A stretch of DNA of 64,000 nt from Bifidobacterium breve (GTDB lineage Bacteria; Actinomycetota; Actinomycetes; Nanopelagicales; Nanopelagicaceae). The notes under the pieces are model-generated. The model was not told where the DNA came from, searched no databases, and was given only the letters and a program-made list of their open reading frames with translations. The DNA is taken from positions 1 to 64,000 of the forward strand of contig CAMCVO010000006.1 of the NCBI GenBank assembly GCA_945881945.1, in the 5' to 3' direction. Position 1 is the stretch's first letter, and each line of letters begins with the position of its first letter. The translations under genes and the position numbers were made by a program. Shown one piece after another: positions 45,268-50,875 of this stretch.

Positions 45268-46269
45268 ATGCGTTACCTCCTGCGATCAGTTTTTGCTTTA
45301 GTAATCGCCTCTGGCCTACTTTTTCCAATCCCAGCAAATGCTGCTCCCAATTTAATTGAGGTGCAAGGGCGGATTAGGGATCTGCAAGAGCAGGCGACAA
45401 CTGCAGCAGAGGGCGCCCAAGAGGCAAAGGTGCAGCTGGCAAAGTTAAAAAAGACCTTAGATTCAGTCCAGCAAGAGGCAAGCCAACAAGGCGCCTTAGT
45501 TACCGCACTTAATAAATCTATTGGTGCGATTGCAAATGAACGTTATAAATCTGGCCCACTTAGCCAATCACTTGAGCTGTTGTTTTCTACCGACCCAAGC
45601 CTTTACCTATCCGCAGCTGGCTCCTTAGAGGCGGTTACTAGACAAAAGACTGCCGATCTAATGAAATTCTCAGTGGCAACTCAACGATTAACTGCCACCT
45701 CACTAACTGTTGCAGATAAGTTAGCAATGGTTAAAGCTGCTGAAGCAAGATTTACTAGGCAATTAGCACTGGCTAATTCAAAGTTAAAAGAGGCAGAGGC
45801 ACTACTTGCAAAATTAACCGCTGCAGAACGAGAGCGGCTTGCCAAATTAACTGAGGATGAAGAGGATGCCGATCAACAGAAGTCCCTAAGTGATGCTGGT
45901 AAGTACTCTGGCGTTTCTGGTCGCGGAGGAGTTGCAATCAAATATGCACTCGCTCAAATTGGCGATAGGTATGTATTTGGTGCTGCTGGGTTAGTCAATT
46001 GGGATTGCTCTGGTTTAACCATGCGGGCCTTTGGTGCAGCTGGTGTATCACTGCCCCACCACTCCGGTTCCCAATATCGATATGGCAAAGCAGTTGCAAA
46101 AAAGGATTTACAGCCAGGTGATTTAGTATTTTTTGGTAAACCAATTTCACACGTTGCAATATATCTAGGACCAGATCGAATGTTGCATGCGCCTAGGTCC
46201 GGAAGTCGAGTAAAAATTGCCAATATGAATATGGGCAAGAAACCTTATATTGGAGCACGCCGTCTCTAA
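45268..46269 (+). CDS. secreted NlpC/P60 peptidoglycan endopeptidase
   Basis: A RipA/RipC-like cell-wall hydrolase of 333 aa. Signal peptide about 1-25 (ending PIPANA), a long coiled coil about 30-200 that usually restrains activity, then the NlpC/P60 domain with catalytic Cys247 (NWDCSGLT), His295 (ISHVAIYL) and His307. It would cut stem-peptide bonds. TAGCCT ends six bases before the ATG. It overlaps the mannosyltransferase gene by 20 bases, an order matching Rv2190c-Rv2188c of M. tuberculosis. Confidence 0.94.
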   Translation: MRYLLRSVFALVIASGLLFPIPANAAPNLIEVQGRIRDLQEQATTAAEGAQEAKVQLAKLKKTLDSVQQEASQQGALVTALNKSIGAIANERYKSGPLSQSLELLFSTDPSLYLSAAGSLEAVTRQKTADLMKFSVATQRLTATSLTVADKLAMVKAAEARFTRQLALANSKLKEAEALLAKLTAAERERLAKLTEDEEDADQQKSLSDAGKYSGVSGRGGVAIKYALAQIGDRYVFGAAGLVNWDCSGLTMRAFGAAGVSLPHHSGSQYRYGKAVAKKDLQPGDLVFFGKPISHVAIYLGPDRMLHAPRSGSRVKIANMNMGKKPYIGARRL

Positions 46270-47407
46270 TCAACAAAAGGTACTGCTGGTCACCAATGAC
46301 TTAGGGCCTAGGGCTGGTGGCATAGAGACATTTGTACTTGGTTTAATTGAAGGATTGCCTAAAAACTCTTTGATTATTTACACATCCAGTCAAAAGGGGG
46401 ATAAAGAGTTTGATAAGCAGCTGCTTGATAAATTTGGCGCGGTGGTAATTAGAGATCGAGCAAAGATTTTGTTACCAACTCCAAGAGTTACTCGCCGGGC
46501 GGTAAAAATCCTTAAGCAAAGTGGAGCTAAAAATCTCTGGTTTGGCGCCGCTGCGCCATTGGGATTAATGGCTGGCACACTTCGAGCAGCTGGTGCTACA
46601 AATATTTTGGCGCTGTCGCATGGCCATGAGGTGTGGTGGGCCAAGATTCCATTTCTCAAAGGCTTGCTTAAGAAGATAGTTAAAGATGTTGATTATCTTG
46701 GTTATTTAGGTGAGTTTACCAGGAGTCAAATTATCAAGGTTAGTGAAAAACCTGAAAAGTTTGTGCAGATTGCTCCAGGAATTGATACAAATCATTTCAC
46801 CCCCAAACAACCAAGAGCTGATCTAATTGAAAAGTATCAATTAGATGGCAGGCGAGTTATTGTTTCTGTGGGCAGATTGGTTCATCGAAAAGGGCAAGAT
46901 GAATTAGTTAAGGCTATGCCAAAAATACTAGAGAAATTTCCAGATGCAATTTTGTTATTAGTTGGTGAAGGACCAATTAAACAGATGCTGTTTAATTCAG
47001 CAAAGCAGTTGGGTGTTTTAACCAAAGTAACTTTTGCTGGAAGAGTTTCCCATCAGGAGCTGCCAGATTACATTTGTCTTGGGGAAATCTTTGCCATGCC
47101 GGTGAGATCTAGATTTTCTGGATTAGAGGTGGAAGGTCTTGGAATTGTTTACCTAGAGGCTAGTGCTTGCGGGTTGCCAGTTGTGGTTGGAAACTCAGGG
47201 GGAGCAGTGGACGCAGTACTAGATAAAGTCACCGGAGTTTTAGTTAATGGCAGCAATGCTGATGAGATCGCTGAGAAAATATGTGAACTACTTGCAAATC
47301 CGCAGGCAGCAAAGCAGATGGGCCAAGCTGGCAGAGGTTGGGTAATTGAGAATTGGCAGTTGAGTAGATGGTCAAAGAAGTTTAATCAGCTACTGATTGG
47401 TGATTAA
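46250..47407 (+). CDS. pimB: GT4 glycosyltransferase, PimB-like mannosyltransferase
   Basis: A GT-B glycosyltransferase of 385 aa: N-terminal VTNDLGPRAGGIETFV, C-terminal nucleotide-sugar site VSVGRLVHRKGQDELV and EGLGIVYLEASACGLPVVV. The motif set and neighbourhood (NlpC/P60 before, FadD, SRPBCC and PlsC after) match PimB', which adds the second mannose to phosphatidylinositol mannoside. The start is TTG 46250; no better start lies before the conserved VLLVTND, and no Shine-Dalgarno is clear. It overlaps the convergent response regulator by 18 bases. Confidence 0.82.
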   Translation: MEHAVSNQQKVLLVTNDLGPRAGGIETFVLGLIEGLPKNSLIIYTSSQKGDKEFDKQLLDKFGAVVIRDRAKILLPTPRVTRRAVKILKQSGAKNLWFGAAAPLGLMAGTLRAAGATNILALSHGHEVWWAKIPFLKGLLKKIVKDVDYLGYLGEFTRSQIIKVSEKPEKFVQIAPGIDTNHFTPKQPRADLIEKYQLDGRRVIVSVGRLVHRKGQDELVKAMPKILEKFPDAILLLVGEGPIKQMLFNSAKQLGVLTKVTFAGRVSHQELPDYICLGEIFAMPVRSRFSGLEVEGLGIVYLEASACGLPVVVGNSGGAVDAVLDKVTGVLVNGSNADEIAEKICELLANPQAAKQMGQAGRGWVIENWQLSRWSKKFNQLLIGD

Positions 47408-48001
47408 TTTATTCTCGATACCAATTGAAACAGCTTGAGCGCGATTTGCCGCCCCTAATTTTCGATAAAGATTAGCTAAATGAGTTTTGATTGTCGCCTC
47501 AGTTAGAAAAAGTACCGCTCCAATTGCATTTGCGGTCGCACCAGATGGTAAAAGTGAGAGTACCTCTAACTCTCTTGGGGTTAAATCAAAATCCTTCCTG
47601 CCTGGGAGAGTACTTATCTCACCTGCCTTTAGAAAACGATCCACACCAGCTGCCACACTTTGAATTACTTCAAGTAGAGAATCGGTGGGTGCAGATTTTG
47701 TTATGAAAGCAACAGCTCCAGCCGCCTTTGCCAATTCAAGTGTTTGATTATCATCATGCATTGTCAGCACAACAAATTTGCTACTTATTCCATCACCCTT
47801 TGCTTGCTTAATTAAATCAATTCCATTGCTACCTCCCAGATTTATATCAATTAAGGTGATTTCAGGTTTATGGGTATTTAGCATCGCAAGCCCCTGACCA
47901 ACACTTGAAGCCTCAGCAACTACTTCAAAGTTTTTTTGAGCAAGAGCAGCTGCCACGCCAGATCTGATCAAGGCATGGTCATCAATAAGAAGGACCTTCA
48001 T
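47390..48001 (-). CDS. NarL/LuxR-type response regulator
   Basis: A 203-residue regulator: receiver domain with phospho-acceptor Asp52 (LIDINL), acidic pair Asp7/Asp8 and a late lysine (FITKSAP), then a LuxR helix-turn-helix (LTPRELEVLSLLPSGATANAIG ... TIKTHLANLYRKLG). It starts one base after the stop of the histidine kinase gene, so both are cotranscribed behind fadD. Targets unknown. Confidence 0.92.
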   Translation of the reverse strand: MKVLLIDDHALIRSGVAAALAQKNFEVVAEASSVGQGLAMLNTHKPEITLIDINLGGSNGIDLIKQAKGDGISSKFVVLTMHDDNQTLELAKAAGAVAFITKSAPTDSLLEVIQSVAAGVDRFLKAGEISTLPGRKDFDLTPRELEVLSLLPSGATANAIGAVLFLTEATIKTHLANLYRKLGAANRAQAVSIGIENKLITNQ

Positions 48002-48002
48002 T

Positions 48003-48572
48003 TTAAAGAGTAATACTTACCGATGTGCCAGCAGGGGTGGAAGTAATTTTCATCTTGGCACCAATTAACAAAAGCCGCTCAGAAACACCGGTTAGACCAA
48101 AGGAGTTCTCTTTATCTATCACACCGCCTTCACCATCATCTACGATCAAAATTTCTGATGGCGTTAATAAAATTTTGATCTGATTGCAGTTGGCATGACG
48201 TTTTGCATTTATAACTAACTCACGAATAGCTCGAAGCAACTCAAACTTATGAGCAGGATCGATAAAGATCTCACCTGTTACTTCATAGGTTATGGCGGTG
48301 CTTGAGAGCAGAGTTTGGATTTGATCAATCAATTGTTGATTAAAGTTTTTAACTTTTTCATTTCTCAGCTCATAGATTTCATCTCGCACCTGATTAATGA
48401 TTGTAGAAAGTGATAGGCGAAGTTCACGAAGAGTGGATCGATTGTTACTGCCTAAGTTGTCATCACCAATTACTGCATCCAAGCGATAGCCAAATGCGGC
48501 TAATTCTTGAGCCAAACCATCATGAAGCTCTCGAGCAAGTCGAGTACGTTCTGAATTAGGCGAAGAGTTCAT
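48003..48572 (-). CDS. minimal cytoplasmic histidine kinase (HisKA_3 + HATPase)
   Basis: A kinase of 189 aa consisting only of catalytic parts. The HisKA_3 phosphorylation helix RTRLARELHDGLAQEL lies at the very N-terminus (His17 from ATG 48572) and the ATPase has IRELVINAKRHA (N box), DDGEGG (G1) and FGLTGVSERL (G2). There is no membrane segment, PAS, GAF or other input domain; upstream is the fadD coding sequence, which its start overlaps (17 bases from 48572, 32 from an alternative start at 48587). Partner is the response regulator at 47390. Confidence 0.88.
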   Translation of the reverse strand: MNSSPNSERTRLARELHDGLAQELAAFGYRLDAVIGDDNLGSNNRSTLRELRLSLSTIINQVRDEIYELRNEKVKNFNQQLIDQIQTLLSSTAITYEVTGEIFIDPAHKFELLRAIRELVINAKRHANCNQIKILLTPSEILIVDDGEGGVIDKENSFGLTGVSERLLLIGAKMKITSTPAGTSVSITL

Positions 48573-50340
48573 CAATCTCGCGAGCAAATTGCTGCGAAAC
48601 TACATGTCGCTTCACTGATAACTTGGCGGTTAATTGCCCACCAGGAATTGTGAAATCAACTGGCAAGATGGTGAACTTTCTAATTGATTCAGCCCTACTT
48701 ACTGCTTTGTTGGTTTCATCCACTGCAGTTTGAATAACAGATTGCAAGGTAGGGTCCTTTGCTAAATCAGCAATTGAAGCACCCTCTTTTTTATTTGCAA
48801 CCGCCCATGGCTTAATTGCATCTGGATCAATAGTGATCAAAGCTGCAATAAATGGTTTGTTGTCGCCAACTACCATGCATTGGCTAATGAGTGGATGTGC
48901 TCGCAATCTATCTTCCAAAACTGCTGGCGCAACATTCTTACCACCTGCGGTAACAATCAACTCTTTCTTACGGCCGACAATTGATAAATATCCCTCATCA
49001 TCAATCTTGCCAAGATCTCCTGATTTAAAGTAACCATCTGAGGTAAATACCTCTTTGTTAGCGGCATCATTTTGCCAATAACCTTGCATAACAATTGCAC
49101 CCTTGATCAAAACCTCGCCATCTTCGGCGATCTTGATAGTAGTTCCTGGAATTGGCTTACCAACTGATCCGACTTTGTGTGATTTTGTTAAGTTCAAAGT
49201 TGCACCAGCTGTAGTTTCAGTTAAACCGTAACCTTCTAATACTCTGATGCCAGCACCACGATAGAAGTGACCAAGCCGTTCACCAAGTGGAGCACCACCT
49301 GAGATTGCTGCCTCAACTCTGCCACCTAGACCGGTGCGAATCTTTACATAAACCAACTTATCAAATAACCCATGTTGCAATTTAAGAAGTGGTGAGATCT
49401 TCTTGGTATCTAAAGCTTTGCTGTATGCAATTGCTACCTCAGCTGCTTTATGGAAAATCTTGCCCTTGCCTGCTGCTTGCGCCTTTGCTTCAGCACCGTT
49501 GTAAACCTTTTCAAATATACGTGGCACTGCCAAGACGAAGGTTGGCTTAAATGAGGCTAAGTCTGTTGGTAATTTAGTTAGATCACTGCAATGAGCAAGA
49601 TGTAAGCCTGCCGTAATTGAGCCAATTTGAACCATTCGACCAAATACGTGAGCAACTGGCAAGAATAAAAGTGTTGAGCCGCCAGGCTTTAGGAATAGAT
49701 CACTTGCACCATTTACGACATTTCCACACTCAGACAAGAAGTTTCCATGTGTTAATTGCACACCTTTTGGCTTACCAGTTGTACCTGATGTGAAAATTAA
49801 AGTTGCCAAAGTCTCTGGCTTTAATTGTTCCCGGCGCTTTGTAATTTCACTATCACTTACATCTTTTCCTTCATGAGTTAAAGTAGCAAGTGCGTTGTAG
49901 GTGATATTCCATACGTGCTTGCAGGTTGCAGGTAGTACTGGTTGAACTAACTCTGCCAATGCAGGTGTTTCAACAATAATCGCAACTGCAGATGAGTCAG
50001 TTAATATCCACTCTACTTGCTCAGCACTTGAAGTTTCATAAATTGGAACTGGAACTGCGCCGGCATACCAAATTGCAAAATCTAAAACAGTCCACTCATA
50101 ACGAGTCTTTGCCATGATCGCAACTCGATCACCAACTGAGATACCAGCTGCAATTAATCCCTTTGCAACCGCTTTGATCTCCTCTTCATACTCTTTAGCG
50201 GTAACTGCTTGCCAACCATCACCAAGTGGGCGAGAGACGATTACCCGTTCAGGCTCAAAGTGAGCTCTTTCTGAAATTAGATTTGTTAAGTTACCAGCAA
50301 CTGGGGCTGGAATTAATGCGGGAATAGTTATCTCGTTCAT
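48556..50340 (-). CDS. fadD: long-chain acyl-CoA synthetase (FadD15-like)
   Basis: Activates fatty acids to acyl-CoA through an acyl-adenylate. AMP-binding motifs: LIFTSGTTGKPKGVQLTHGN (A3), VLEGYGLTETTA (A5), YFKSGDLGKIDDEGYL (A7) and GRKKELIVTAGGKNVAP; the C-terminal lysine region is RKFTILPVDFTIPGGQLTAKLSVKR. 594 aa. TAGCGT ends six bases before the ATG. It heads a unit with the histidine kinase and response regulator, and lies back to back with the SRPBCC gene, as fadD15 does near pimB in mycobacteria. Confidence 0.92.
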   Translation of the reverse strand: MNEITIPALIPAPVAGNLTNLISERAHFEPERVIVSRPLGDGWQAVTAKEYEEEIKAVAKGLIAAGISVGDRVAIMAKTRYEWTVLDFAIWYAGAVPVPIYETSSAEQVEWILTDSSAVAIIVETPALAELVQPVLPATCKHVWNITYNALATLTHEGKDVSDSEITKRREQLKPETLATLIFTSGTTGKPKGVQLTHGNFLSECGNVVNGASDLFLKPGGSTLLFLPVAHVFGRMVQIGSITAGLHLAHCSDLTKLPTDLASFKPTFVLAVPRIFEKVYNGAEAKAQAAGKGKIFHKAAEVAIAYSKALDTKKISPLLKLQHGLFDKLVYVKIRTGLGGRVEAAISGGAPLGERLGHFYRGAGIRVLEGYGLTETTAGATLNLTKSHKVGSVGKPIPGTTIKIAEDGEVLIKGAIVMQGYWQNDAANKEVFTSDGYFKSGDLGKIDDEGYLSIVGRKKELIVTAGGKNVAPAVLEDRLRAHPLISQCMVVGDNKPFIAALITIDPDAIKPWAVANKKEGASIADLAKDPTLQSVIQTAVDETNKAVSRAESIRKFTILPVDFTIPGGQLTAKLSVKRHVVSQQFAREIDELFA

Positions 50341-50440
50341 AGCCCCACGCTACTGGCTTGCACTTATTTGCGCTAGAACCTAGCCATAACTCTCAGGAAG
50401 GGGGCTAAAAAGGGCTGCTACTTCAGGGTAACCTAGCGCC

Positions 50441-50875
50441 ATGTCTAACCCAACCACCTCAACAGTAACAATCGCAGCTGCCGCAGATGATGTCCGGGCG
50501 GTGCTGTTTGATATCGCAAATTTTCCAACCTGGTCCACCTCATTTAAAGCAGTCACTGTTCTTGCCTCAAACGGTGATGGCCGGCCAACTCAGGCAAAAC
50601 TTACAGTTGATGCCGGTGCTTTGAAAGATAAGCCAACATTAAATTTTGATTGGTCTGCATACCCAGATCGAGTGGATTACTCACTTGAGGATGCTGACTT
50701 ATTAACTGATATGAGTGGTGCCTATATTGTTAAGGACAATGGTGATGAAACTGAGGTTACTTTTGAATTAACAGTTGCACTTTCTATGCCAGTTCCTGAG
50801 GTGATGCGCACAAAAGCTGAGAAAGCAACCATCGATTTAACCTTAAAGCAGTTAAAGGAAAAACTGGAAAACTAA
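50441..50875 (+). CDS. SRPBCC (polyketide cyclase-like) family protein
   Basis: A 144-residue START-like protein with a hydrophobic ligand pocket: STVTIAAAADDVRAVLFDIANFPTWS, TEVTFELTV and a C-terminal long helix (ATIDLTLKQLKEKLEN). Members bind lipids or other hydrophobic ligands. It corresponds in place to the SRPBCC gene near fadD15 in mycobacteria. TAACCT ends six bases before the ATG. Confidence 0.85.
   Translation: MSNPTTSTVTIAAAADDVRAVLFDIANFPTWSTSFKAVTVLASNGDGRPTQAKLTVDAGALKDKPTLNFDWSAYPDRVDYSLEDADLLTDMSGAYIVKDNGDETEVTFELTVALSMPVPEVMRTKAEKATIDLTLKQLKEKLEN

Follow-up and report, generated by a model that had tools for sequence, protein, structure and literature searches.

Sensorless proteins built of DHp and CA-like domains are known in Spo0B and ChpT, whose ATP-binding domains are degenerate. 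The closest sensing system is DesK-DesR of Bacillus subtilis, a HisKA_3 kinase with a NarL-type regulator, in which five transmembrane (TM) helices and a two-helix coiled coil precede the DHp domain. DesK deprived of its TM region is constitutive and has been described as locked in a kinase-dominant state (PMC3996569, PMC8301901), and destabilization of its coiled coil leaves it constitutively ON (PMC6879721). MacS/MacR (SCO2121/SCO2120) of Streptomyces coelicolor likewise joins a HisKA_3-type kinase to a NarL-type regulator (PMC9739842). By position, the nearest systems are actinobacterial TM5-GAF-HisKA_3 kinases with NarL-type regulators that lie beside fadD and pimB' in Micromonospora and others. 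The pair described here occupies the same locus in the same order, but whereas the sensor of those kinases spans roughly 340-430 residues, this one has none.

A kinase core between fadD and pimB'

The window, a stretch of 64,000 nucleotides, comes from a genome that is 86% complete. With 43% GC and genomes of 1.1-1.2 Mb, its source is very likely an acI actinobacterium of the Ca. Nanopelagicus kind. The features of the locus are as follows.

46250-47407, plus strand: pimB' mannosyltransferase, GT4, convergent with the regulator (match to 3oka, 5e-81)
47390-48001, minus strand: NarL/LuxR-type response regulator, REC and GerE HTH, with REC residues D7, D8, D52, T80 and K102 (Pfam, alignment)
48003-48572, minus strand: sensorless histidine kinase, DHp and CA only, 189 aa from ATG, frame open from TTG 48587
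48006-48347, minus strand: CA (HATPase) domain of the kinase, N box and G boxes intact (Pfam, family alignment)
48360-48551, minus strand: HisKA_3 DHp hairpin of the kinase, with H17-D18 and the DxxxQ phosphatase motif (Pfam, family alignment)
48524-48522, minus strand: codon of the phospho-histidine, residue 17 counted from ATG 48572
48556-50340, minus strand: fadD, long-chain acyl-CoA synthetase, FadD15-like by position, 594 aa, first gene of the run (AMP-binding 264 bits, Pfam)

The ATG at 48572 is the likely start of the kinase and is kept across the window genus. Counted from it, the kinase gene shares 17 nt with fadD; the regulator ATG lies one base past the kinase stop, and the 3' end of the regulator overlaps pimB' by 18 nt. 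The initial annotation had described a kinase with no input domain and its phospho-histidine at residue 17, followed one base later by a NarL-type regulator, in a PIM locus. All of this holds, the locus label because the neighbouring GT4 gene matches PimB'. It had also called the kinase translationally coupled to fadD; the overlap is there, and coupling may follow from it.

The divergent intergenic region between fadD and the START gene (50340-50441) is just 100 bp long. Promoter-like blocks lie within a few bases of each of the two start codons, which suggests leaderless mRNAs. Footprinting of this region across three clades returned these blocks and nothing else, and no conserved operator palindrome was seen by eye.

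The kinase scores 41 bits against HisKA_3 (Pfam cut-off 24; residues 13-76 of the TTG frame) and 20.2 bits against HATPase_c, under the Pfam cut-off of 26.4. Its AlphaFold model (pLDDT 83) combines a pair of long DHp helices with an ATPase domain of alpha/beta fold, and its best Foldseek matches are VraS and DesK, with DesKC the best over the full chain. A DHp domain with H-D-x3-Q and a HATPase domain with N and G boxes place it in the HisKA_3 class, and the N-terminal sensor or input region of that class is absent. Sixteen residues precede the histidine, the first eight of the ORF being modelled with low confidence; across 60 family kinases the frame stays open before the histidine for a median of 25 residues and a maximum of 43. 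The kinase thus lacks both the TM region and the coiled-coil linker of DesK and is nearer the laboratory truncation DesKC. We rejected an identity with MacS: against a cut-off of 300 bits, the NCBIfam profile NF047322 scored the window kinase at 27 bits and its full-length relatives at 36-56. The regulator (Response_reg 78 bits, GerE 60 bits) carries the phospho-Asp and Lys of the receiver and the GerE HTH expected of the NarL type. In the window genome as recovered, this kinase is the sole HisKA_3 match, and there are five receiver-domain matches.

Catalytic residues were counted in 60 sensorless kinases of the window family and overall are kept in 56-60 of them. The phospho-histidine and the DxxxQ glutamine are each present in 59/60, the missing row being cut at the DHp by a contig end; among the alignable kinases, H and Q stand at 59/59 and D at 57/59. 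Unlike Spo0B and ChpT, these proteins have an intact ATP-binding domain, with N-box Glu and Asn in 60/60, the G1 Asp in 58/60 and the G2 Gly in 60/60. The partner regulators keep the phospho-Asp and the Lys in 60/60. Pairwise dN/dS within the window genus is 0.02-0.06 for the DHp, the most constrained domain, 0.08-0.18 for REC, 0.01-0.16 for the HTH and 0.02-0.04 for FadD; CA evolves fastest of the unit in most pairs and is still at 0.14-0.36. On motif conservation and dN/dS well below 1 we rejected a pseudogene, and, as judged from these alignments, the kinase core is under purifying selection rather than decaying. The possibility raised at the outset that the gene is a remnant in most relatives does not survive these 60 kinases.

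The kinase was found in 20/24 other genomes of the window genus, and pimB' convergent with regulator-kinase-fadD, followed by START and ROK genes, is the order in the loci read, both within that genus and across further genera of its family. The gene is not a chance frame, because it recurs in these congeners with conserved gene order. Three of the four congeners without it are drafts that also lack fadD. The fourth, G012, keeps fadD, and there fadD and pimB' lie tail to tail with stops about 70 nt apart (L171, 1428-1498), the pair being cleanly gone. Conservation of the three-gene unit, the check that had been proposed, is therefore broad, with a deletion in one congener and a fusion in a sister clade. 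One contig, CAMCYS010000001.1 (L111), is titled Bifidobacterium breve; by its FadD (75% identity) and its sensorless unit it falls with the Nanopelagicaceae-like family, and it is probably a mislabelled MAG.

Full-length relatives and loss of the sensor

Syntenic kinases in other families of the class are mostly 541-640 aa long; lengths above this range arise from stop-to-stop frames that extend beyond the gene itself. They have several predicted TM helices (about five), a GAF domain that is weak in some, HisKA_3 and HATPase, with a NarL regulator next to them, and in most of these loci pimB' and/or fadD is near. Compared with DesK, their sensor has an extra GAF domain, and the likeness of the two TM regions is one of helix count. 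Before the histidine, kinases of the window family (f1) have at most 43 residues and outgroup kinases at least 347, across at least ten families.

In Micromonospora and in two close outgroups, L128 and L124 (the latter a record titled Ca. Nanopelagicales), fadD is directly followed by the full-length kinase. The adjacency of fadD, kinase and regulator is older than the loss of the sensor, because these kinases keep their own sensor there. In the FadD tree, every sampled member of the window family lacks the sensor or is reduced still further, and the outgroup kinases sampled beside fadD have their full length, except for L069 and for lineages without the pair. The sensor was lost in the ancestor of the window family (Ca. 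Nanopelagicaceae-like). A single branch of the kinase-core tree (SH-aLRT 85) splits paralogues from the sensorless and full-length kinases together, and orthology of this fast-evolving core rests more on synteny than on the tree. At L069 (6853-7734, family f7), a sensorless kinase directly after fadD is nested among full-length kinases, which suggests a second, independent loss. In many Streptomyces and Kitasatospora, fadD directly faces pimB', and no kinase-regulator pair was found beside fadD in these two genera.

Fusions, orphan regulators and deletion

In a sister group, sampled from two genera and from named MAG contigs, a single ORF of about 127-190 aa fills the space between fadD and pimB' at 21 loci (L070-L077, L086-L088, L094, L097, L098, L100, L105, L106 and L172-L175). 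This ORF runs from a DHp-like helical hairpin into the regulator HTH and has neither ATPase nor receiver; DHp and HTH are thus the domains that survive. One type keeps the histidine, with the DxxxQ glutamine mostly changed, and another lacks the histidine. Pfam sees GerE strongly and HisKA_3 weakly, and profiles built from the family kinases detect the hairpin in every fusion but L086. The AlphaFold model of the L105 fusion (mean pLDDT 73) has a hairpin of moderate confidence and a confident HTH, and Foldseek matches it mainly through the HTH. The fusion HTH reaches 66% identity to that of the window regulator, the FLTEATIK helix included, which suggests that the two may share targets. In a careful FadD tree all 21 fusions form a single clade with support of 14/22, and this would fit one origin or several. 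A DHp joined straight to an HTH without kinase or receiver has no description that we could find in the open-licence PMC literature.

Other lineages have gone different ways. At L176 and L177 (G137, G139) the kinase is lost, and an orphan regulator keeps its HTH with a degraded receiver from which the N-terminal acidic pair is missing. At L178/L182 (G034) a very divergent FadD (56%) precedes a protein of 176 aa whose N-terminus is helical and whose HTH is the same; this may be another reduced form.

We consider it somewhat better than an even guess that the locus records a stepwise collapse, from TM-GAF-DHp-CA with REC-HTH, through the DHp-CA with REC-HTH of the window, to a signal-free DHp-HTH whose hairpin would be a mere dimerizer that locks the regulator on.

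The input and output of the core

We propose a model in which an ancestral membrane kinase (about five TM helices, GAF, HisKA_3 and HATPase) was encoded at pimB', flanked by fadD and a NarL-type regulator. Its whole sensor was deleted in the ancestor of the streamlined window family, and what remained was a soluble catalytic core that would be translated together with fadD. We take this core to be constitutive because it is without both TM region and coiled coil, as in the DesK precedents; by that likeness it would be kinase-dominant and keep the regulator phosphorylated, at a level set by fadD-linked expression and ATP supply. The pair would then activate or repress independently of any signal and would not be a lipid sensor. 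In the sister group, collapse to DHp-HTH presumably dimerizes the DNA-binding domain permanently and mimics the phosphorylated dimer for good, which would fit a system whose useful state is ON. A sensorless, signal-independent and probably kinase-dominant pair that keeps the regulator on, made permanent by the fusion, is the explanation we favour, and we regard it as reasonably probable. With its DxxxQ motif retained, the core has probably kept its phosphatase activity, an odd trait in a device that would act as a kinase alone.

That motif also lends something to a bifunctional core with no dedicated signal, one that reads the energy state (ATP/ADP) or the kinase:regulator ratio. The full bifunctional motif set is present and no sensor was found in the window genome, but the fusion lineages suggest that a fixed output is enough, and we think this improbable.

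A little less probable again is that FadD, or its acyl-adenylate or acyl-CoA product, is the input, FadD having taken over sensing after the membrane sensor was lost. The initial annotation had named another protein, or the acyl-CoA or acyl-adenylate that FadD makes, as the signal required. Core kinases can be controlled by soluble partners, and FadD could act on this one in that way; in the family loci read, the kinase adjoins or overlaps fadD, with overlap in the window genus. However, full-length relatives share the fadD adjacency, and with this the argument from neighbourhood falls: the adjacency predates the sensor loss. Moreover, fadD stays beside DHp-HTH fusions that have neither kinase nor receiver, the loci read contain no FadD-kinase fusion, and identity across most of the family is 75-97% for FadD, whereas it falls to 30-75% for the kinase. 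Lipid sensing through FadD is weakened accordingly, and no result obtained here speaks for FadD or acyl-CoA in particular. The further statement that such a unit in a lipid locus was undescribed stands for the literature searched: on sensorless kinases, DHp-LuxR fusions or kinases at fadD15/pimB, nothing on point was found in open-licence PMC articles.

A separate, non-homologous membrane sensor acting in trans seems distinctly unlikely. Accessory proteins do control some HisKA_3 kinases, LiaF with LiaRS being an example (PMC7191749), but no membrane gene was seen inside the unit, and a search of the 86%-complete window genome for a GAF_3 domain or a homologue of the ancestral sensor found none; such a search sees homologues, and a novel partner would escape it. 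The sensor encoded elsewhere that had been raised as an objection thus did not appear in recognisable form. Least likely of all, and very improbable, is that the gene is a remnant in decay or encodes a phosphotransferase of the Spo0B/ChpT kind whose ATPase domain is dead, a view that could appeal to the relaxed CA (dN/dS up to 0.36) and to the fusion, orphan-regulator and deletion states, but runs against the intact N box and G1 Asp and the low dN/dS of the family kinases.

Streamlined freshwater actinobacteria keep few two-component systems, and at this one syntenic locus related species still preserve loss of the sensor, fusion of kinase with regulator, and complete deletion of the pair. These intermediates make testable both the behaviour of a sensorless core and the dismantling of signalling with its output kept. 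They also correct a tempting reading, in that proximity to fadD reflects inheritance and is not evidence of lipid sensing.
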